64,000 bases of DNA from Nevskia sp. (GTDB lineage: Bacteria > Pseudomonadota > Gammaproteobacteria > Nevskiales > Nevskiaceae). Shown one piece after another: positions 1,500 to 38,671 of the stretch. The notes under the pieces are model-generated. The model saw only the letters and a program-made list of their open reading frames with translations. It was not told the DNA's origin and did no database searches. The stretch is from positions 1 through 64,000 of the forward strand of contig JAKFUK010000002.1 of assembly GCA_021732745.1 (NCBI GenBank), written 5' to 3'. A program made the translations under genes and the position numbers. Every line of letters starts with the position of its first letter. Position 1 is the first letter of the stretch.

Positions 1500-1937
1500 A
1501 TGCGCCGCGAGACCCGAACCATCGAGATGGACTTTTTCGAGGTGCCGCGCCCGGCGAACCCTTGCCCGGGCAGCCACGACTACCGGACACAGGTCTCGGA
1601 AATCGTCTCGAAGATGCTCGCGGACTCACCCGACGACCGGTACGCAATTGCAGCATCAATGAGCCGCCTGCTCGGGCGCGATGTCAGCAAGTACATGCTC
1701 GACGCCTACAGCGCGCCGGGACGTGAGGAATACAACCTGCCGTTCTATCTGGTGGCCGCCCTTGAAGTGGCGTGTCACAGCCACGCCCTGACGCTCTGGC
1801 TGACCGATGTGCGCGGCGGTCGCCTGCTGATTGGCAAGGAAGCCCTGAACGCTGAGCTGGGCCGCTTGCAGAAGCAACGCGACGACGCTGCCGTCCGCAT
1901 GCGCGAGCTCAAGAAGATGATGGGGGAGCCGGAATGA
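1500..1937 (+). CDS. Early phage protein of unknown function
   Basis: 145 residues between ner and the transposase gene, overlapping the latter by four bases (ATGA), so translation is probably coupled. The middle segment is mixed alpha/beta without a motif I can name; residues about 110-140 (ELGRLQKQRDDAAVRMRELK) look like a short coiled coil. Start at ATG 1500, two bases after the ner stop; ATG 1527 is an alternative. Small proteins of this type sit at this place in several Mu-like phages, but I do not recognise the family. Confidence 0.7.
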   Translation: MRRETRTIEMDFFEVPRPANPCPGSHDYRTQVSEIVSKMLADSPDDRYAIAASMSRLLGRDVSKYMLDAYSAPGREEYNLPFYLVAALEVACHSHALTLWLTDVRGGRLLIGKEALNAELGRLQKQRDDAAVRMRELKKMMGEPE

Positions 1938-4096
1938 AGCGCTGGCTCGCTGCTGCCGAGCTGGTCGGGCTGCCCGGTCTGCCCGCGACCAAATCCGGTT
2001 TCATCCGGCTCGCAACGCGCGAAGCGTGGCCGTGCCGGCCGCGCTCGGGCCGAGGCGGTGGCGCGGAATACCAGGTCGAAGCCCTTCCGGCTGCCACCCG
2101 TTCCGCCCTGACCTGCCGCGAAATGGCGGCCGCTGCCGCCGCAGAGCGCCAGTCGATCGGAGCGGCCTCAGCAGCGCCGCGCGACAGCCGCCAGGCAACA
2201 GCCGAAAGCAGCCTGAAAGCCACCGCCGGGCTGACCGGCTGGAAACGCGAGCATCTCGATCTGCGCGCCGCGCTTTGGCAGGCCCTGGACGAGCATCACC
2301 GCCGCAGCGGATGCAGCTGGGGCGCAACGCTGGCGGCTTACAACAGCGGCGCGTTGATCGTTGCGAAGGCTGTGCGGGCCTACCGGCCGACCCTGAGCGC
2401 GATCACGCTGGAACGCATGCGCGCAGCGGTCAACAGCGGCGGTACGGCCGCGCTGACCACCGCCTACGGCAACCGCAAGGACAGCGGCGCAGTTGACAGC
2501 CAGCCAGCGCTTCGCGAGTTCGTGCTGGCCATGCTGGCCGAGCACCCCCATGCCCGCGCCTCGCAGATCCTGATTGCCGCCGAACGGCGCTTCCGCAACG
2601 TGCCGGACATGCGCCTGCCAAGCGAATGCCGGCTACGCGCGTGGATGAAGGCCTGGCGCAGCGAAAACCGGTCTCTGGCCACGGCGCTCACCAGCCCGGA
2701 CCAGTGGAAGAACAAATACATGACGGCGTTCGGCGACGCTGATCAGTTCGTGCTGCGCTTGAACCAGCGCTGGGAGATGGACAGCACGCCGGCCGACGTG
2801 CAGTGCATCGACGGCCGCCACGCGATTGTCGGCTGCATCGACGTGTTCAGCCGCCGGCTCAAGATGCTGGTGTCGCGCGTCTCGAAATCCGAGGCCATTG
2901 CCGGGCTGCTGCGCGAATGCATCCTTGACTGGGGCGTTCCCGAAACAGTCGGCACCGATCAGGGCAAGGACTACGTCGGCAAACACATGACGCGGGTGCT
3001 CGGCGACCTCGAAATCGAGCAAAGCCGCGCCAACAAGTTCAGCCCCTGGGAAAAGCCGTTCATCGAACGCTCCCTTGGTGTTTTCTCGCACGACGCCGCT
3101 ATCGAGCTGCTGCCCAGCTTCATCGGCCACGACGTTGAAGAGCGCCAGGCGATCCGCAGCCGCCTGAGCTTCGCGCAGCAGCTATTCAGCAAGAACGACA
3201 CCGTGCCCTGCGATCTCACGGGCGCGCAATTGCAGGCGATTTGCGACCTGTACACGGACGAAATCTATGCCCACCGCCGGCACGGCGGCATCGACTGCAC
3301 GCCGGTTGAAAAGGCGGCGAGCTGGCAGCAGGTGCCGCGCCGCATCAGCGACGTGCGTGCGCTCGACTTGCTGCTATGCCCGGCCGTCAGCAACGACGGC
3401 TGGCGCACGGTGACCAAGAACGGCATCAGCGTCGACAACGCCTGGTACATCGCCGCTGAACTTGGCCCTCGTGCCGGTGAGCGCGTGCGCTGCCTCACGC
3501 ATCCGAAAGACCAGGGGCTGATCGAGGTCTACGCCACCGATCCGGACACCGGCGAGCTGGCCTGGCTGTGCGAAGCGGTGGCGGCTGAATACGCCGGCAT
3601 CGATCGCCGCGATATCGCCACCAAAGCGCGTCAGCTACAGGCCGCGCAGATCAGTCGCCTGCGCACCGAAATCCGCAGCAGCGCCCGCCGGCTCAAAACT
3701 CGCGATGTCGCAGCCGAGCTGCTCGACGATGCCCGCGCCCGGCGCGGCAACGTGGTGGCGCTGCCGCAGCCATCCACGCCCTACAGCACGCCTGCGCTCA
3801 ACGCCGCTGCCAGCAGCGCCGCCGGGCCGCAGATGCCGGCATCAGCGGGTCTGGACCAACGCGGCCGCGACCTGCTGCGCGAACTCGAAGCCCGGCCCCC
3901 TGCGCAAGTTGTGCAGATGCCGGCACGGCCGGTGAACCCTCAGATCGGCGTCGACAACCGCATCAGCCGTTTCCTCGACATCGAGCGCCGGATCGGCGCT
4001 GGCGAGGCCGTCGGCGATGACGAACGCAAGTGGTTCCACAACTACCAGACCACGTCGGAATACCGCGTGGGGATGCTGCTCAGAAAGGGCCTTTAA
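1934..4096 (+). CDS. MuA-type DDE transposase
   Basis: 720 residues. The N-terminal 65 residues resemble the Mu-type winged helix DNA-binding domain (MKRWLAAAELVGLPGLP). The integrase-fold core has Asp283 (EMDST), Asp342 (GTDQGKDY) and Glu378 (FIERS). The last two are separated by 35 residues, the D-D-35-E spacing of MuA and retroviral integrases. A C-terminal beta-barrel-like region and a tail follow, the latter expected to contact the B ATPase and ClpX-type unfoldases (family knowledge). It cuts and joins the phage ends at 146 and 40496 for integration and replicative transposition. It overlaps the preceding gene by four bases. Confidence 0.96.
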   Translation: MKRWLAAAELVGLPGLPATKSGFIRLATREAWPCRPRSGRGGGAEYQVEALPAATRSALTCREMAAAAAAERQSIGAASAAPRDSRQATAESSLKATAGLTGWKREHLDLRAALWQALDEHHRRSGCSWGATLAAYNSGALIVAKAVRAYRPTLSAITLERMRAAVNSGGTAALTTAYGNRKDSGAVDSQPALREFVLAMLAEHPHARASQILIAAERRFRNVPDMRLPSECRLRAWMKAWRSENRSLATALTSPDQWKNKYMTAFGDADQFVLRLNQRWEMDSTPADVQCIDGRHAIVGCIDVFSRRLKMLVSRVSKSEAIAGLLRECILDWGVPETVGTDQGKDYVGKHMTRVLGDLEIEQSRANKFSPWEKPFIERSLGVFSHDAAIELLPSFIGHDVEERQAIRSRLSFAQQLFSKNDTVPCDLTGAQLQAICDLYTDEIYAHRRHGGIDCTPVEKAASWQQVPRRISDVRALDLLLCPAVSNDGWRTVTKNGISVDNAWYIAAELGPRAGERVRCLTHPKDQGLIEVYATDPDTGELAWLCEAVAAEYAGIDRRDIATKARQLQAAQISRLRTEIRSSARRLKTRDVAAELLDDARARRGNVVALPQPSTPYSTPALNAAASSAAGPQMPASAGLDQRGRDLLRELEARPPAQVVQMPARPVNPQIGVDNRISRFLDIERRIGAGEAVGDDERKWFHNYQTTSEYRVGMLLRKGL

Positions 4097-4171: not shown

Positions 4172-4921
4172 ATGCAGCAGGGGAACAGCATCGCCAGCCA
4201 TGACGGCGCAACCGCCGCCATCAGCAACGTGGCCCAGGTCATGCGGGCTTTGGATCGGGCGATCACCGCGCCGAACCATCTGCCGAAGATCGTGGTTCAC
4301 AACGGGCCTTCGGGCTACGGCAAGAGCTTCGGTGCCACCCGCGCCGCCAATCACTACCGCGCCTACTACGTGGAGGTGAAAAGCACCTGGACCAGCAAGG
4401 CGCTGCTGATCGCCATCTTGAAAGAGATGCAGATCAAACCGGCGAAAACCATCTACGAGATGGGCGATCAGGCCGCCGAGCAACTGGCACTTTCAGGGCG
4501 GCCGTTGATCGTGGACGAGTTCGATTTCCTGGTCGATCGCTCGGCAGTGGAAGTGATCCGCGATCTCCACGAAGCGGCCGGCGGCGTGCCCATTCTGCTG
4601 GTCGGTGAAGAGCACCTGGAAAAGAAGTTGCGGCAGTGGGAGCGCTTCCACAACCGCGTTCTGGAATGGTTCCCGGCGCTGCCGGCCACCGCCGACGACA
4701 CCCGCAAGCTGGCCGATCTGTACTGCCGCCGCGTGGAAGTAGCCGAAGACCTGCTGGCAGCCATCCACCAGGTGGGCCGGGGCATCGTCCGCCGCATTGT
4801 GGTGAACCTGGAACGGGTTCAGGAATTCGGCGTCACGCATGGCTTCGAGCGGGTGACGCTCAAGGACTATGGCAATGACGGCTTCTACACCGGCGAAGCG
4901 CCGCGCCGGCTGGCCGCGTGA
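4172..4921 (+). CDS. MuB-like AAA+ ATPase, transposition target-selection protein
   Basis: 249 residues. Walker A is GPSGYGKS (45-52) and Walker B is PLIVDEFD (111-118). The domain order fits the C-terminal ATPase part of MuB; the N-terminal DNA-binding segment is short here, and a separate Cro-like protein encoded at 5604 may supply that function (inference). MuB coats target DNA, stimulates the transposase and gives target immunity. ATG 4172 has AAGGGAG upstream. A 75-base gap separates it from the transposase gene. Confidence 0.93.
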   Translation: MQQGNSIASHDGATAAISNVAQVMRALDRAITAPNHLPKIVVHNGPSGYGKSFGATRAANHYRAYYVEVKSTWTSKALLIAILKEMQIKPAKTIYEMGDQAAEQLALSGRPLIVDEFDFLVDRSAVEVIRDLHEAAGGVPILLVGEEHLEKKLRQWERFHNRVLEWFPALPATADDTRKLADLYCRRVEVAEDLLAAIHQVGRGIVRRIVVNLERVQEFGVTHGFERVTLKDYGNDGFYTGEAPRRLAA

Positions 4922-5607
4922 TGAGCCAGCCCATGAGCAAGACGCCAGGCACGCCGCCGGGCACGCCCTTGAGCCGGGAGCAAGTGGTGGCGCTCAAGCA
5001 CCGTCGCGGCCGCAAGCCGGTGGATCTGCTGGTAGACCATCCGCGCCCGCAGGGCCGGCAGGCCATCTGGTCCGCCATCCGCAAGCTGCGCAGCTTCCGC
5101 CTGGCCGAGCTCGAGCATGAGACGCACATCGGCGAAGCCACCCTGCGCAGCTACCTGCAAGGGCTGGTGGCGGCGGGCTACCTGAGCGCCGCGCTTGAGA
5201 CGGCGGCCCAGCAGCGCTACGCGCCGCTGCGCTACACGCTGGTGCGCGATGTGGGCGTGGAAGCCCCGCGTGTGACCAAAGCCGGCAAGCCGGTGACCCA
5301 GGGCTTGAGCCGCGAGCTGCTGTGGCGTGCCATGCGCATCCTCCAGGAGTTCGGTGCGGACGATTTGGCGGAGTCCGCCAGCATCGCCGCCTGCCGCGTC
5401 GACCCGGAAGACACTCGGGATTACATCAAGCATTTGAAGGCCGCCGGCTATCTGCGGGTGGTCGTCGAGCACACGCCCCAGCGCCCGGCGCGCTATCGGC
5501 TGATCCCGGTCCGCAACACCGGGCCGCAGGCACCGCAGGTGCAGCGCGTGCAGCAGGTGTTTGATCCCAATCTGGGCCGGGTGATGAGTCCGGAGGCCGC
5601 GTCATGA
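4921..5607 (+). CDS. Early phage protein with paired winged-helix-like segments
   Basis: 228 residues from ATG 4921, sharing one base with the stop of the B gene; GTG 4918 is also possible. Two similar segments (about 45-100 and 130-185) each contain a helix-rich stretch followed by GLVAAGYL or HLKAAGYL and a basic YRLIP/YTLVR strand, the look of tandem winged helices. A DNA-binding role in early replication or transcription is inferred. The C-terminus is Pro/Gln rich. Confidence 0.75.
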   Translation: MSQPMSKTPGTPPGTPLSREQVVALKHRRGRKPVDLLVDHPRPQGRQAIWSAIRKLRSFRLAELEHETHIGEATLRSYLQGLVAAGYLSAALETAAQQRYAPLRYTLVRDVGVEAPRVTKAGKPVTQGLSRELLWRAMRILQEFGADDLAESASIAACRVDPEDTRDYIKHLKAAGYLRVVVEHTPQRPARYRLIPVRNTGPQAPQVQRVQQVFDPNLGRVMSPEAAS

Positions 5608-9778: not shown

Positions 9779-9865
9779 ATGGCGCGCGTTGCTGAAATTT
9801 TTGAAAAGCCACCCCGGCCCACAGGGCCAGCCTTATGCGCCAAGTCTCGGCGGGAGCCACGATGA
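9779..9865 (+). CDS. Possible 28-residue leader-like ORF
   Basis: This short frame (MARVAEIFEKPP...) starts one base after the preceding stop and its TGA overlaps the next ATG, so it may couple translation of the DUF7220-like gene. Support is only its position and overlaps. Confidence 0.3.
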   Translation: MARVAEIFEKPPRPTGPALCAKSRREPR

Positions 9866-10428
9866 TGCAAACCAAACGACACAGCCTGATCGAGAGTTGC
9901 AGCAATACGGCAATCGGCTACGTGGTGGCGATTCTCAGCCAGTTGGCGATTTTCCCGATGTTTGGGATTCACCTGCCGCTTCACGACAACCTGATGATCG
10001 GCGCGTGGTTCACCGGCATCAGCGTTGTGCGGGGCTACGTGCTGCGCCGGTGGTTCACCCGCAGGACTGAGAGTTCCAGCGCCAGCGTTCAGCAAGGCAA
10101 AGATGTCGGACGCAATGCCTTGTCGGGCTACGGCTGCTTGGACTTTTGCGAGACCCACGGTCGCGACGAAATAGCGCTCGACAACGACGGCGCAGAGTTT
10201 TGCAACGAGTGCGCTGCTGACGGATGGAATGGCGAACTGTGCTCGCCAGCGCCAGATTCATGCAGCCTCTCGGACCCGCAGTCCAACGAACGGGAACGGC
10301 AATTCATGTGCCCGATCCACGCGGCCGAGCATGTTGCTTTCTGCGCTGAGTCTTTTCCGCCCAACGCCAGCTTCAGCCGGAGCGATAGCGAATCGGCTGC
10401 AAGCGACAGTTGTACTGGAGGGCAGTGA
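9862..10428 (+). CDS. DUF7220-like membrane protein fused in frame to an integron-cassette frame
   Basis: 188 residues. Residues 1-70 resemble the small phage membrane family DUF7220 (IGYVVAILSQLAIFPMFGI, then LMIGAWFTGISVVRGYVLRR). Such proteins normally end soon after that point. Here the frame runs on through attC site A (residues 71-89, GKDVGRNAL) into cassette 1, giving a Cys-rich domain with CLDFCETHG, CNEC and MCPIHAAEH, a probable metal-binding fold. It stops just inside the next cassette. The fused protein may be made as such, or the DUF7220 stop was lost on insertion. Start at ATG 9862; ATG 9865 also possible. Confidence 0.65.
   Translation: MMQTKRHSLIESCSNTAIGYVVAILSQLAIFPMFGIHLPLHDNLMIGAWFTGISVVRGYVLRRWFTRRTESSSASVQQGKDVGRNALSGYGCLDFCETHGRDEIALDNDGAEFCNECAADGWNGELCSPAPDSCSLSDPQSNERERQFMCPIHAAEHVAFCAESFPPNASFSRSDSESAASDSCTGGQ
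10074..10128 (+). repeat. attC site A (degenerate left arm)
   Basis: The right arm runs from GGCAAAGATG to the core GTCGGGC at 10122-10128. It aligns base for base with the right arms of sites C and E. The left arm begins TTCCAGCGCCAG, close to the left arm of site B but with a poor inverse core. Its own upstream cassette boundary could not be found. Confidence 0.7.
10359..10415 (+). repeat. attC site B
   Basis: Inverse core GCCCAAC (10359-10365) and core GTTGTAC (10409-10415). The arms CTTCAGCCG and CGGCTGCAAG pair with one bulged base, the typical extrahelical position of attC. Confidence 0.88.
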
Positions 10429-10430
10429 CG

Positions 10431-10601
10431 ATGCCGAGTTTAGGGTGCGGCCGTTTTTGGGAAAGCGACCCACGCCGATGGGAGCGATGCCGCCGACGCG
10501 CGACTGCCGAAATGGTGGCGTCCGGCTGGAAAACCTACGCGCGAAAGTTTGATGAAGTGATGACGCGCAAGGCCCGCAAGCTGTGGGCTTCCGGGTCGTG
10601 A
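10431..10601 (+). CDS. Cassette 2 ORF, small basic protein of unknown function
   Basis: 56 residues, rich in Arg and Trp (ESDPRRWERCRRRATAEM). It starts 21 bases into the cassette with GGAGG (10417-10421) nine bases before ATG, and ends two bases before attC site C, exactly the spacing typical of integron cassette genes. No homology is recognised, as is common for chromosomal-integron cassettes. Confidence 0.7.
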   Translation: MPSLGCGRFWESDPRRWERCRRRATAEMVASGWKTYARKFDEVMTRKARKLWASGS

Positions 10602-10602
10602 C

Positions 10603-10704
10603 GTACAACGCCGAAATTAACCCGCGTTCTTGCCCCGGAGAAAACTCGAATGGATGAGCCGAACCACGCGGGGCAAGAACGTCGGGTTGAATGCCTGGTT
10701 AGCC
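10603..10704 (+). repeat. attC site C
   Basis: Inverse core GTACAAC (10603-10609) and core GTTAGCC (10698-10704). The arms contain a perfect 12-bp stem (CGTTCTTGCCCC with its complement) and AACCCG/CGGGTT, with bulged T and G in the right arm. Confidence 0.92.
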
Positions 10705-10721
10705 CTGCGCTGCCGCGACGT

Positions 10722-11060
10722 GTGCGGCTGAGCCGGGCGAAGGGTTGGCGGATGCCGCCGAACACCGTGAAGGTGGACCGAACCACCAAGTGGGGGAACC
10801 CATTTATGCCGGGCAACGCCAAGAACCCGCTGGGCCTGCCGGTGAAAGACAAGCGACATGCCTTTGTGCTCTACCGCTCGGTAGCTGGCGACAACGCGAC
10901 GCTCGTTGCCGCTGCACAGGCCGAGTTGCGAGGGAAGAACTTGGCGTGCTGGTGCGACCACGAAGACCCCTACGAAGATGCGTGCCATGCCGCTGTGCTT
11001 TTGATGCTGGCTAACGCTGACGTTCACGCGACCGCTGGCCGCGAACAGAAGCCGGATTGA
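10722..11060 (+). CDS. Cassette 3 ORF, DUF4326-like protein
   Basis: About 112 residues from GTG 10722. It contains the DUF4326 signature: RLSRAKGWRMPPNTVKVDR, TKWGNPF and, later, LACWCDHE. Function of the family is unknown. The frame is open back to ATG 10650 inside attC site C, but that start would lie outside the circular cassette, so a start after 10699 is preferred. No convincing ribosome site is seen. The TGA is directly followed by attC site D. Confidence 0.78.
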   Translation: MRLSRAKGWRMPPNTVKVDRTTKWGNPFMPGNAKNPLGLPVKDKRHAFVLYRSVAGDNATLVAAAQAELRGKNLACWCDHEDPYEDACHAAVLLMLANADVHATAGREQKPD

Positions 11061-11110
11061 AGTAACGAAAAACGCGCGGCCAGTGGGTCGCGTGCAATGG
11101 CTGGTTATGA
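11061..11110 (+). repeat. attC site D (degenerate left arm)
   Basis: Core GTTATGA at 11104-11110. The right arm (CGCGTGCAATGGCTG) follows the pattern of site C. The left arm begins AAGTAAC directly after the cassette 3 stop codon; ACGCG pairs with CGCGT. Confidence 0.75.
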
Positions 11111-11126
11111 CGGATAGGAGAGTCAA

Positions 11127-11327
11127 ATGTTTGGAATGCTAACGAATCTCACAAAGGCGGTTGTAGCTGTGGCCGTGGCCCCAGTTGATGCAGTAGTTGA
11201 CGTGATTACCTTGCCAGCAAGCGCGAGCGATGGAACCGGGCCTTTTGACCGGACGGCCAAGCGTCTTTCTCAAGCCGCTGATGCGATGGACGCGGCGCTG
11301 AAGCCAGACTATGAAAGCAAGTCATAA
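11127..11327 (+). CDS. Cassette 4 ORF, small hydrophobic protein
   Basis: 66 residues with a hydrophobic N-terminal half (LTKAVVAVAVAPVDAVVDVI) and a polar, helical C-terminal half. AGGAG lies six bases before ATG, 22 bases into the cassette, and the stop codon overlaps the inverse core of site E. Small proteins of this look occur in phages and plasmids; function unknown. It may be a membrane-associated or exported peptide (inference). Confidence 0.75.
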   Translation: MFGMLTNLTKAVVAVAVAPVDAVVDVITLPASASDGTGPFDRTAKRLSQAADAMDAALKPDYESKS

Positions 11328-11422
11328 CGCCAAAGTTGAGCCGGGGCTTTGCCCGGCCGAGAAACCCGATGAAAAGTGAAACGCAGGAAGGCAAAGACCT
11401 CGGCTCGAACGCCTTGTTGGAC
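11322..11422 (+). repeat. attC site E
   Basis: Inverse core TCATAAC (11322-11328), which includes the stop codon of the cassette 4 ORF, and core GTTGGAC (11416-11422). The arms GAGCCG/CGGCTC and CTTTGCC/GGCAAAG pair, with bulged T and G at the same places as site C. Confidence 0.92.
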
Positions 11423-11632
11423 AAGCGCAGCGCCCGAGACCACGGCCCTTTCAGTGCTTATTGCAAGGTTTGCTGGAATCCCTGTTACATCTTTTGGATT
11501 GATACCGAGCCTCATGGAGGCGTCTGCATGTTCGGTCATGAGCGCGCAGGCCAATGTCCTGATGCGATGGCTGCCGCCAAGAACACGGCTGCTTTCCGGC
11601 GGATCAATGATTTTGTGTCCAACGCCAATTAA
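11369..11632 (+). CDS. Cassette 5 ORF, Cys-containing small protein
   Basis: 87 residues if begun at ATG 11369, which lies in the loop of attC site E; the frame then crosses the right arm (GKDLGSNALLD) into cassette 5. Within the cassette itself the first in-frame start is TTG 11417. The cassette part has CKVCWNPC and CMFGH, suggesting a small metal site, and it stops inside attC site F. The attC-derived peptide GKDLGSNAL parallels the GKDVGRNAL of the DUF7220 fusion. Confidence 0.6.
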   Translation: MKSETQEGKDLGSNALLDKRSARDHGPFSAYCKVCWNPCYIFWIDTEPHGGVCMFGHERAGQCPDAMAAAKNTAAFRRINDFVSNAN

Positions 11633-11660
11633 CCGACCCATGCAAGGTTGAAATGTCCTA
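11617..11660 (+). repeat. attC site F (terminal, right core not consensus)
   Basis: Inverse core GTCCAAC (11617-11623) is a perfect partner for the cassette 5 start. The arms AACC/GGTT pair with a bulged G, but the right core is not GTTRRRY. This is expected where the last cassette abuts non-integron DNA. The start codon of the next phage gene (11653) lies within the right arm. Confidence 0.75.
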
Positions 11661-11949
11661 CCGCCGAACCTCCAAAGCTGTTCGCTGCCGCGCGCCTCGC
11701 CAGGGGGGCGATCCGTCTGCTGTGGACCGCGTTGATCGCTGGCAGCCGCCTGCATTGCGGCGGCTGATCGAGATCACGGATTACGACTGCGGCGAGGTGA
11801 AGCATCGGATCGAGCTGCGCCGATCGAATCGGATCGACTGCTACGAAGTGCATGTCGACGGCCGCCTGTGGAAAAAGCGCATCGGCTGGAGCCGGGCGCT
11901 GGCCGGCATTCGCAAGGCGCTGCCGCGCATGTCCATCTTCAGCGCATGA
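11653..11949 (+). CDS. Small basic phage protein downstream of the cassette array
   Basis: 98 residues. Its ATG sits in the right arm of attC site F and only AAGG five bases upstream resembles a ribosome site. The 5-prime end may therefore have been remodelled by cassette insertion. The C-terminal half (CYEVHVDGRLWKKRIGWSRA) looks folded; no family recognised. It overlaps gemA by four bases, which places it in the phage operon. Confidence 0.6.
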   Translation: MSYRRTSKAVRCRAPRQGGDPSAVDRVDRWQPPALRRLIEITDYDCGEVKHRIELRRSNRIDCYEVHVDGRLWKKRIGWSRALAGIRKALPRMSIFSA

Positions 11950-12422
11950 ACACCGTCCGCGATCCTCGCCGGGTCGATCTGGCCCGCATCCATCTGCTCA
12001 AGGCGCAGATCGGCATGACGCGGGAGCAGTACGAGGCCGTGCTCTGGCTCGCCGCACAGGTGGATTCCTCGGCCGATGCCGACGAAACCGGACGCCAGGC
12101 CATCATCCGGCAGCTCGAATCGCGCCTGACCCCGGCCCAGCGCGCCCAGCCCCGGAAAACACCGCGAGCGGCCCCGGCTGGCAAGGCCAAGCCTCGCCAG
12201 CGGCCTGCGGAAGACAAGGCGCGGCAGGTGGCAAAGATTCGCGCATTGCTGATCAACCATCCCGGCGGCCGCCGTGCAGACGCTTATGCGGATGCCATGA
12301 GCCAGAAAATGTTCGGTGTCGATCTCTACACCTGGTGCACCAGCGATCAGCTCGGCAAGCTGATTGCCGCCCTGGTCATCGACACCCGCCGCAGTGCGCA
12401 GGCCGGCCCAGGCAAGCCATGA
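11946..12422 (+). CDS. GemA/Gp16 family protein
   Basis: 158 residues. The N-terminal part (ARIHLLKAQIGMTREQYEAVL) and C-terminal part (MSQKMFGVDLYTWCTSDQLGKLIAAL) are characteristic of Mu gp16/GemA proteins. They modulate host gene expression or DNA supercoiling in Mu; the exact role is not settled. A Lys/Pro/Ala-rich linker (90-120) joins the two parts. It overlaps the next gene by four bases. Confidence 0.88.
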   Translation: MNTVRDPRRVDLARIHLLKAQIGMTREQYEAVLWLAAQVDSSADADETGRQAIIRQLESRLTPAQRAQPRKTPRAAPAGKAKPRQRPAEDKARQVAKIRALLINHPGGRRADAYADAMSQKMFGVDLYTWCTSDQLGKLIAALVIDTRRSAQAGPGKP

Positions 12423-36629: not shown

Positions 36630-38671
36630 CCGCGCTTTGCCAGCCGATCAGCTACTACGAAGTGCGCATTCGGCCGGCCGCTGTGCCCGATCAGTGGACC
36701 TACCACCGCTTCAACCCCGCGCAGCCGATCCTGCTGCATGGGGTCGAGATCGGCACGATGTACGTGGTGGAGGTGCGCTGCATCCCCGTGGCAGGCATGC
36801 CCAGCGTCTGGGCGTCGATCAGCCACATGGTGCAGGCCTCTACCCTGTACCTGCCGCAGATCGTGGGCGTTGTGGCCACCCCGCTGGCGGACGGCGTGCA
36901 TCTGATCTGGACTCGCCCGCCTGGGCTGGCGGCCGACGTTCGCATCGAGATCTATCGTGCGCCTGATGCCGGCGGTATCCCGGGCATGTTCACGCTGCTC
37001 TATACCGCGCCAGGAACCGCCTACAACGATGCCGTGGTCGACGGCGCGCCCTACTGGTACACGATGAGGTTCATCGACTACGCGGGCAGCGGCGGCACTT
37101 ACAGCACGCCGGTCTTTGCCCGGGCCAAGACCGTGGCGAACGGTGCCACCGTGGGCGGCACGCTCGGTGTCGACGTGATAGCCGCGCCAGGCGGCCCGGT
37201 CTTGACCAATCTGGATCAAATGCCGGAAGGCCCGATCTACCAGCGCGACACGTTCCGCAAGAGCGCGGACCTCATCGCCAATGGCGATTTCGAGGCAGGC
37301 GATACCTTGCCGCCGCCGCTATGGTCGGCTGGCCCCACAGGGCTCATGGCGGGCGAGGCGGGACCGAATGCGCCGGCCGGGCTGGCCTATCTCAACGGCC
37401 TGTCCGCGTACAACGGGCAGCGCAGCTTGCAGGTGGCGTGCAGCGGCGATTACCAGGGCGTCGCCGCGCGGCAATCCTTGCGCGTGGTCCCCGGCGAGAG
37501 CTTTGTCCTGTCTGCCGTTGGCATCGCATCGACAGGCGAGATGCGCGTGATCGTTCGCTGGTATGACCGGCTTCAGCAGTGGCTGTTCACGGACGCCATC
37601 CTGACCTTTGGCTTCGAGGCCTGGGCGGAGCAGACTGCCACCATCGTGGCTCCGGCAAACGCCTACAACGCCATTCTGCTGGCCGACAACAGCAATAGCG
37701 GCGGCAGCACTTTTTACCTCGACAACGTGGTGCTGCGGCGTGTGAGCCTGCTGGATATTGATGTTCAGGACGGCGCGACCTATGGGCGCACGCGGCTGGA
37801 CATTCTCACCGGGGGCCGGCCGGACATGTCCAAGCCCATCGTCAACAACACGGCCGACTATGTGCTGCAAACAGAGACCCGGCGTTGGGCTGCCGAAACC
37901 GGTGCCCAGGTCGTTACTGGCAAGCCGCTCGACATCCTGTCGGACGGCACCGTCTATGGCAGGCCTCGGCTTGACATCCTGACCGATGGCCGGCCGGACA
38001 TGTCCAAGCCCATCGTCAACAACACGGCCGACTATGTGCTGCAAACAGAGACCCGGCGTTGGGCAGGCGAAACTGGGGCCACCGTTGGAGCGCGGGCCGG
38101 GCTAAACCTGCTGAGCAATGCTGGGGCCATGCTTGGCGATAGTGAAATCGTCACGTCTCAAGGCACCGCGAACGATGTAACCAACGTCAATGGGGTGTCG
38201 GCGGCGACTGTTCGCACCAACGCACAGACCGGTGCATTCCTGACGCTGGCAACGTCAGGCGTGCGGATCGGCGGTGGTCGAAATCTGCCGCCGGTGCGAA
38301 CCGCGAATGCTGGTGCGTTATGGAACGGCCTCACGCTCGGGGCTTCCTGGGACACCGCCACCCCTGCAAACGTGACGCTGTCGGCCTCGGCCGCGACCCT
38401 ACAGCAGGGCAGCTACGCAGCCAGCTTCGGCGCTTCGAGCGTCACGGTGTCGGGCATCACGCGAGGCGTGCCGCAGACATACCGGCTGTTTTACGAGGGG
38501 TCGTCAGTTTTGAGCGGCGGCACGTTTTCATTGCAGGCGACTACTAGCCAAATCACCGTGGTCAGCTCCGACACGCGCATTCACGTCGGCAACATCACAT
38601 TCACCGTGCCGGCCAGCGGTGGCGGTTCTGGCGGCACGGGTAGCGGCGGCGGCGGAGGCCAAATCCCATGA
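36626..38671 (+). CDS. Tail tip/fibre protein with FN3-like domain and internal duplication
   Basis: 681 residues from GTG 36626. Residues about 85-170 look like a fibronectin type III repeat (VHLIWTRPPGLAADVRIEIY). Residues about 215-370 form a carbohydrate-binding-like jelly roll (LIANGDFEAGDTLPPPLW). A 58-residue unit (LDILTGGRPDMSKPIVNNTA) is then repeated; a Gly-rich end follows. Likely the central fibre or receptor-binding protein. Confidence 0.75.
   Translation: MTALCQPISYYEVRIRPAAVPDQWTYHRFNPAQPILLHGVEIGTMYVVEVRCIPVAGMPSVWASISHMVQASTLYLPQIVGVVATPLADGVHLIWTRPPGLAADVRIEIYRAPDAGGIPGMFTLLYTAPGTAYNDAVVDGAPYWYTMRFIDYAGSGGTYSTPVFARAKTVANGATVGGTLGVDVIAAPGGPVLTNLDQMPEGPIYQRDTFRKSADLIANGDFEAGDTLPPPLWSAGPTGLMAGEAGPNAPAGLAYLNGLSAYNGQRSLQVACSGDYQGVAARQSLRVVPGESFVLSAVGIASTGEMRVIVRWYDRLQQWLFTDAILTFGFEAWAEQTATIVAPANAYNAILLADNSNSGGSTFYLDNVVLRRVSLLDIDVQDGATYGRTRLDILTGGRPDMSKPIVNNTADYVLQTETRRWAAETGAQVVTGKPLDILSDGTVYGRPRLDILTDGRPDMSKPIVNNTADYVLQTETRRWAGETGATVGARAGLNLLSNAGAMLGDSEIVTSQGTANDVTNVNGVSAATVRTNAQTGAFLTLATSGVRIGGGRNLPPVRTANAGALWNGLTLGASWDTATPANVTLSASAATLQQGSYAASFGASSVTVSGITRGVPQTYRLFYEGSSVLSGGTFSLQATTSQITVVSSDTRIHVGNITFTVPASGGGSGGTGSGGGGGQIP
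37814..38064 (+). repeat. Tandem duplication inside the tail fibre gene
   Basis: Bases 37814-37890 (77 bp) are identical to 37988-38064, offset by 174 bases (58 codons), so the frame is kept. Exact identity implies recent duplication or gene conversion. Confidence 0.95.

Follow-up and report, generated by a model that had tools for sequence, protein, structure and literature searches.

How does a phage come to carry gene cassettes of the integron type if it carries no integron integrase? This question is raised by a Mu-like (transposable) prophage at the start of the window, which is the 64-kb stretch of Nevskia sp. DNA that we analyzed (contig JAKFUK010000002.1, positions 1 to 64,000). Between the DUF7220 gene of this phage and a gene that we will call X, the interval is filled with small open reading frames (ORFs) that alternate with sites resembling attC. 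(We label loci with L-numbers and genomes with G-numbers; G000 is the host genome of the window.) The array is real: it consists of integron-type cassettes. We think it likely that the array belongs to an integron platform that lacks an integrase, is carried by phages, and is loaded in trans by the integrase (IntI) of the host.

Rfam, at its gathering thresholds, gave only tRNAs over the window and no attC-type match, so we built a covariance model, R1, from 26 attC sites, drawn from ten intI-adjacent loci in other genomes of the window's order. These training sites were located via their repeats, cores, and stems, and they include no sequence from the window or from phages. Over the 64 kb, R1 found four sites, all on the minus strand: site C (10603-10704; 48.4 bits, E = 2.3e-11), site E (11322-11422; 47.3 bits, E = 4.8e-11), site B (10359-10415; 31.4 bits, E = 1.7e-6), and site D (11009-11110; 29.2 bits, E = 7.7e-6). 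The next-best match had E = 0.18. (Two weak matches of 14 bits have this E value, at 37852-37890 and 38026-38064; they have identical letters, lie 174 bp apart, and are probably a repeat rather than attC.) Our own stem-and-core score also ranked C (19.6), E (17.6), and D (16.1) at the top of the 64 kb, with the next candidate at 12.8; the maximum over 40 Markov-1 resamples of positions 1-32000 was 15.8. By that score alone, site B (12.3) is at the level of noise. The sequence-only reading of this DNA had listed six attC-like sites. Four of these were recovered by R1 where it had placed them, and they resemble the attC sites of bona fide integrons in sequence and structure; the outermost two, A and F, were not recovered. 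Site A (about 10074-10128, minus strand, located by eye) is the end of the array distal to X. It has no R1 match, and by eye both of its core triplets are altered (TTCCAGC where RYYYAAC would be expected, and GTCGGGC where GTTRRRY would), so it looks like a decayed attC.

The cores of successive sites are chained. From B to C, C to D, D to E, and E to F, the match is exact at 7 of 7 positions (GTTGTAC/GTACAAC, GTTAGCC/GGCTAAC, GTTATGA/TCATAAC, and GTTGGAC/GTCCAAC, respectively), and from A to B it is 6 of 7 by eye. The matching ends reported earlier for cassettes 1, 2, 4, and 5 are thus as described, and cassette 3, which had been called a partial match, is exact as well. In alignments examined by eye, the extrahelical bases lie in one arm only, which is the 3' arm of the plus strand. 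Sites C and E have both of these bases, as does D, whose arm is less regular, and B has the first. With four attC sites and no IntI above the cut-off in the genome, the array qualifies as a cluster of attC sites lacking integron-integrases (CALIN), which requires at least two attC sites and no intI nearby.

By DNA similarity, none of the window's cassettes were found in 84 other genomes of the order, and the only match there was from G010 to attC site E (74% identity). Eight records of GenBank phages match short parts of this region at 71-78% identity: the DUF7220 stretch, the preceding gene, or cassette 3.

Site F (11617-11648, minus strand) has an R'' core, which reads GTCCAAC on the plus strand, and no L'/R' half; instead it continues into an element that is conserved in other phages. 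By this layout, it is not an attC. We will call it attX, a putative attI-like docking site with a degenerate inverted L box and the arm GACCCATGCAAGGT. Gene X (11653-11949, plus strand) follows and encodes 98 amino acids. Because this attI-like junction next to X is common to otherwise different phages, the array is not just a solitary CALIN that landed in a phage.

To find relatives of X, we scanned viral and bacterial sequences. The first viral scan, with the 98-residue protein, found one relative, L055, whose contig also contains an attC, an R'' core, and nearly identical sequence before X. Further scans found 10 loci in IMG/VR, 9 bacterial loci, and 9 matches that included three contigs already known. 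The bacterial loci are from Amphritea, Aliamphritea, or Marinobacterium (seven loci), Pontibacterium (one), and a metagenome-assembled genome of Geobacter (one). A profile of 21 X proteins then gave 68 loci in IMG/VR, including the earlier ones. With tblastn, X had no match in the phage and plasmid collections. These counts are of records and not of independent events: many of the IMG/VR records are fragments, and several are near-duplicates (such as L150/L151 and L177/L178). When we clustered the ORFs of 70 loci, with flanks of about 6 kb on each side, X was the only protein cluster common to most loci (64/70). The next cluster was present at 12 loci and is antisense to X, judging from the place of its example, and the third was present at 8 loci, with the GemA-like ORF of L205 as its example.

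attC sites accompany X across these phages. Over 66 X loci (610 kb), R1 had 148 matches at E ≤ 0.5, and 146 of them run opposite to X. At a stricter threshold (E ≤ 0.01), an attC match lies upstream of X in 41 of the 51 loci that have more than 1000 nt of upstream sequence. As a comparison, the same model had such matches in just 2 of 35 phage loci with DUF7220. The attX core also matches the complement of R' in the nearest upstream attC: among 36 pairs, 25 are exact, 4 match at 6 of 7 positions, and 7 match at 5 or fewer. When the partners were shuffled, the mean number of exact matches was 2.7, with a maximum of 10 in 10,000 shuffles.

Comparisons of closely related loci locate the breakpoints. 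In L133, L134, L135, and L136, attX and X together are 93-97% identical, and the variable DNA ends at the AAC of the attX core. The bases just before this AAC differ among the four loci, except that L134 and L135 both have TAT. On the right, 346 bp of L133 can be aligned to L134; over 3 kb on the left, nothing can. To the right, L135 and L136 represent a single phage (95.2% identity over 8,079 bp); the left flank of L135 is only 29 nt. Two sister phages, L124 and L126, have backbone pieces at 65-80% identity, and their attX and X are 83% identical. By blastn, their arrays have no cassette gene in common, only one 72-bp attC at 97% identity. These sequences fit what insertion and loss of cassettes at the core would predict. 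Nor do relatives of the window's phage carry the block as fixed phage genes: X and attX recur, and the cassettes differ.

attX consists of an outer core, RYYYAAC, and a conserved element of about 30 bp that lies directly before X. In the first 20 loci printed, the layout is RYYYAAC, about 4 nt, [GT]ATTANNC, 2-3 nt, and the arm GACCGTGCAAGGT. The arm, whose letters are also given as ACCGTGCAAGGT, is nearly palindromic and stands beside the start codon of X. We counted it in 67 of the 68 loci (L137 was omitted), of which 64 had enough upstream sequence. Allowing up to 3 mismatches over its 13 positions, the arm is present in 58 of these 64, and the AAC of the core lies 15 or 16 nt before it in all 58. 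The copies from several Oceanospirillales, such as L105, L106, L108, L109, and L111, are degenerate. (In L107 and L110, further palindromic copies, such as ACCTTGCAAGGT, lie between attX and X.)

Does attX resemble attI? An R box of attI has GTTRRRY at the border with the cassettes, with polarity running away from it. attX has this arrangement, as judged from the variable DNA that ends at its core, the 25 of 36 exact core matches, and the 146 of 148 attC matches that run opposite to X. In an alignment read by eye, [GT]ATTANNC is inverted relative to RYYYAAC, with about 4-5 nt between them. The L boxes of attI are not known to have a strict consensus. We conclude that attX looks like an attI, with an R box and an apparent degenerate inverted L box, and that it may be a target of IntI. 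Going by the polarity of the attC sites, attX is where attI would be expected, and X is where intI would be expected. Two ideas about the origin of attX were rejected. One is that attX is a copy of a host attI; by eye, it does not resemble the sequences that precede six intI genes. The other, that attX and X are the end of a prophage that inserted into a host attC, was abandoned because phage genes flank the module on either side in the window, L123, and L124.

The orientation of the cassettes was unexpected from the sequence-only reading, which had them running along phage transcription. The ORFs do so, and this direction is confirmed by family matches for cassette 3 (DUF4326, E = 4e-21) and cassette 4 (phrog_38693, E = 1.2e-8). 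It had also assumed that the attC sites read with the ORFs, and there it was mistaken, as all four are on the minus strand. This polarity follows from the unpaired bases, which are in the 3' arm of the plus strand, versus the R''-L'' arm in canonical sites. As a control, we applied R1 to 12 further loci that had not been used for training and for which the direction of intI is known. Ten had matches at 0.01, and these run away from intI, except in L037 (two sites plus two weaker matches on the second strand). Therefore, the window's attC sites point to the left, away from site F, and the ORFs point to the right.

We then asked how common this reversal is, using the longest ORF in each core-matched cassette. 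At nine phage loci (39 cassettes, a few of whose intervals overlap), the ORF runs against the attC in 29 and with it in 6, and 4 are tied. In chromosomal integrons of the order (45 cassettes), 4 are opposite, 37 are the same, and 4 are tied (Fisher's exact test, 5e-11). In the phages, the cargo is turned around and reads with the phage genes toward X. Selection for reversed ORFs could account for this. Cassette 5 of the window is counted among the 6 because its likely start is inside the attC: the start codons lie within site E, and without them the longest ORF between the cores would be on the minus strand (28 versus 13 codons). Similarly, in 18 of 41 phage attC sites, a plus-strand ORF starts inside the attC (sites C and E in the window; others in L124-L128), so that the first residues of the cassette protein derive from the recombination site. 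We consider these internal starts to be suggestive only.

Where might an integrase come from? We searched for IntI with the TIGR02249 model at its cut-off of 265 bits. The window's genome, which is 91% complete, had no IntI above the cut-off and two weak matches (30.7 and 20.9 bits), in agreement with the earlier claim that no integrase accompanies the array. Among phage records, none of 10 and none of 50 had an IntI above the cut-off (55 distinct records, many of them fragments). Weak matches in 8 of the 50 virus records are of the same kind as those in 14 control genomes. Accordingly, no complete integron, with intI beside attI, was found in the window's genome or in the 55 phage records, many of which are fragments. 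Of the 9 bacterial genomes with X, 5 encode an IntI above the cut-off; for the window's order, the number is 55 of 85 genomes. Because no IntI was found in the host genome, the array is probably at rest in this lysogen. Outside of the window, G000 has eight further attC matches, some of them single and two in pairs (C4: 142060, 227999, and 228478; C5: 89059, 163792, and 164373; C1: 676973 and 1398594), and no intI was found.

At the bacterial X locus L104, all three cassettes run away from X. The genes to the left of attX are on the minus strand in L105, L106, and L107, as are most or the nearest ones in L108, L109, and L111. These directions imply that in bacteria, X stands where intI stands. 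X and attX are thus also found in chromosomes (L104, L105, L106, L107, L109, and L111), with cargo running away from X, and these loci are perhaps the ancestor or the descendant of the phage module.

The X protein itself gives few clues. In Pfam and NCBIfam it has chance-level matches only, and in PHROGs it has none. Across 56 X proteins, about 100 residues align, with R39, D48, R64, D66, and R96 invariant (L169 numbering) and others nearly so, including Y68 and W83. A first AlphaFold model had a pLDDT of 73.6, and a second, with 56 sequences, reached 89.3 and has a helix, four strands, and a helix. There was no Foldseek match at E ≤ 0.001, the best VIA Z was 3.9, and a comparison to PDB sequences gave one weak match, to a plant protein (E = 0.01). 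Two weak rows for PUR domains (Z 2.8) were absent from a later structural comparison and were not used. In the window, the N-terminal third of X (11653-11760) deviates from its relatives, while the rest is conserved; this could reflect a local frame change. Because X is linked to attX, and because of the near-palindrome beside its start codon, X may bind at attX. We predict that it acts there, probably as a site-binding accessory factor, an autoregulator, or both.

The prophage is Mu-like, as had been claimed. Its MuA-type transposase (1934-4096, plus strand; phrog_310, E = 3.6e-89) has the domains PF02316 (7e-14), PF00665 (1.2e-8), and PF09299 (4.5e-7). The left border of the array is the DUF7220 gene (9868-10068, plus strand; PF23858, E = 8.8e-30, over residues 11-75 of ORF 9835-10428), whose reading frame continues into cassette 1. 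On the right, X is followed by GemA (11946-12422, plus strand; PF06252, E = 2.2e-16, on ORF 11868-12422). The pairing of cassettes with Mu-like phages, which had seemed special, does not extend to the family: the C-terminal domain of MuA is found in 6 of 50 virus records with X and was not seen in the other 44, though many of the records are fragments. The X loci of all six MuA-bearing records have attC matches. In four of the six, a GemA-like ORF is upstream of the array and X, whereas the window has its GemA after X; the position of the module thus varies among Mu-like phages.

We also noticed attC sites away from X. L093 (in G005) is another Mu-like prophage, from the window's family, whose MuA is 46% identical. 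It contains two attC sites (11332-11398, E = 1.6e-12, and 11693-11752, E = 2.5e-6) with matching cores around a 94-amino-acid ORF that is right after Mor and runs against the attC sites. There is no X among its listed ORFs, and we saw no attX; lacking X, it does not serve as a control for an empty site. The DUF7220 phage contig L081 has, at 4909-5440, an attC (3.5e-9) and what looks by eye like a second one, with exactly matching cores. This pair encloses an ORF of about 130 amino acids, some 700 bp after DUF7220. On a third contig with DUF7220, L066, R1 has a match at 10402-10472 (25 bits, 7e-4), about 4.4 kb beyond DUF7220.

The cargo of the window is mostly unnamed. Cassette 2 (ORF at 10410-10601, plus strand, 63 amino acids) and cassette 5 (11369-11632, plus strand, 87 amino acids from the ATG at 11369) do not belong to known families. 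Cassette 4 (11127-11327, plus strand, 66 amino acids) matches phrog_38693, a phage family of unknown function. The one named family is the DUF4326 of cassette 3 (PF14216; 10650-11060, plus strand, 136 amino acids from the start codon at 10650, which is inside attC site C). In other phages, we used Pfam on cassettes that were chosen by eye, which is not a survey, and found Thg1, a methyltransferase, a C5 DNA methylase, an N6/N4 methylase, and two ASCH proteins, as well as a Mom-like protein just under the Pfam cut-off (27.0 versus 27.1 bits). Judging by their families, some of the named proteins look like tools against host defense.

We propose the following model. attX, which faces left just upstream of X, would receive circular cassettes, and the IntI of whichever host the phage occupies would act in trans. 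It would recombine the attX core with the folded attC strand of such a cassette, which would enter at the GTT of that core; the newest cassette would lie beside attX, and older ones would shift to the left. X would occupy the place of intI in an ordinary integron. Cassettes with reversed ORFs would be expressed with the phage operon and hence would be kept, and the array would then travel with the phage. Loading by a host integrase seems to us the most likely mechanism. In its favor, the extrahelical bases of the phage attC sites are mostly in the 3' arm, with the junction at R''.

Several observations weigh against this model. With no IntI found in this host genome, the array would be at rest unless the enzyme comes from elsewhere. 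Site A is decayed, which is a weak point, and the window's attX is one base shorter than most of its relatives. Six of the 64 loci have no recognizable arm, and 7 of the 36 core pairs match poorly. Ten of the 51 loci have no upstream attC match at 0.01 (L148, L162, L170, L179, L180, L188, L203, L204, L208, and L210). attX is unlike, by eye, the regions upstream of six intI genes in bacteria that carry X. Because L093 and L081 have attC pairs without X in the sequence read, attX is not the sole way in. Finally, L133 and L136 have in common a 91-bp piece (87% identity) to the left of attX, which coincides with attC matches in both.

Alternatively, attX and X could be a self-standing system of phages for exchanging cassettes. 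X rather than the host's IntI would choose or catalyze insertion, drawing on a communal pool of reversed and largely counter-defense cassettes that is independent of bacterial integrons. We view this as unlikely. Nor do we find it probable that the exchange dispenses with IntI and is instead catalyzed or directed by X, either by itself or together with a phage recombinase. X is alone in being common to most loci (64/70), it has near-invariant R, D, and Y residues, and it occupies intI's position; also, 4 of the 9 bacterial genomes with X lack an IntI above the cut-off, as does the window's genome. But with about 100 residues, X matches no recombinase family and has no confident fold match, and the extrahelical bases of the attC sites are confined to one side, a feature that IntI is known to recognize.

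Another possibility is that attX and X form a module whose cassettes are exchanged between phages by homologous recombination, with the attC sites and attX with X as anchors. Phage genomes are mosaic, attX and X recur in otherwise different phages, the right border near the end of X varies, and the piece common to L133 and L136 is the size of an attC. We doubt that this is the answer: it leaves unexplained why the left border is at the core AAC in L133-L136 (even with just 29 nt of left flank in L135), and it does not explain the cores of the end cassettes, which usually match their own R'. As for a CALIN that was captured by chance through illegitimate or homologous recombination and is carried passively, with attX merely the leader of X, this is improbable even though CALINs in phages are published and off-target events of this kind were proposed for their entry (in the accessible text of PMC9892861), the host genome has eight further attC matches and no IntI that we found, and L093 and L081 carry attC sites with no X seen, because chance capture would not yield 41 of 51 phage loci with attC sites before one and the same element and gene, and fails to explain the 25 of 36 core matches at attX or the reversal of the ORFs.

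If host integrases do load these arrays, then what is the broader meaning? Integrons are usually viewed as bacterial platforms whose defining part is the integrase. The phages described here are of different types; they carry no integrase and retain an insertion site, one linked gene, and a stock of small genes that changes. This opens testable questions: how accessory genes might be reloaded without homology, how host integrons might be used by their parasites, and what role a partner protein might have at an attI-like site. The combination of reversed ORFs and the attX core is a simple signature for locating more such platforms. That phages carry cassettes is already published. In searches of the open-licence literature (bioRxiv preprints were outside the scope), we did not come across a dock that is common to phages and accompanied by a partner gene and reversed cargo.

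The nearest known systems are the CALINs of phages. According to the accessible text of Qi et al. 2023 (PMC9892861), 10,705 phage genomes contained three complete integrons, one lone integrase, and 17 CALINs, and when six other attC sites of phages were assayed in E. coli, IntI1 recombined five. These CALINs resemble the X loci in having clusters of attC sites and small cassettes, including methyltransferase cassettes, without an integrase. They differ in that no common dock or partner gene is described in that text. In TJE1, a phage from that study, R1 gives two attC sites (9.3e-4 and 1.5e-3) that run with the ORFs, while here they run against them. The integron of the Shewanella prophage M16-3 and the class 1 integrons of P1, as presented in the same text, are also integron parts in temperate phages, but unlike the X phages they carry intI and a host-type attI. 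attX can also be compared to attG sites, which are described as divergent targets in bacterial genomes for the insertion of cassettes by IntI (Loot et al. 2024, as cited in the accessible text of PMC12901181). Both are insertion targets other than attI. attX differs in being conserved, in having an arm, and in its link to a single gene across phages; this comparison uses the description of attG only. Complete integrons have the same attC structure, the same chaining of cores, an attI-like site at one end, and cassettes stacked away from it. The phage platform departs from them in having X in place of intI and in the reversal of its ORFs, whereas the chromosomal X loci L104-L107 are like ordinary integrons in that the genes next to attX run away from X.

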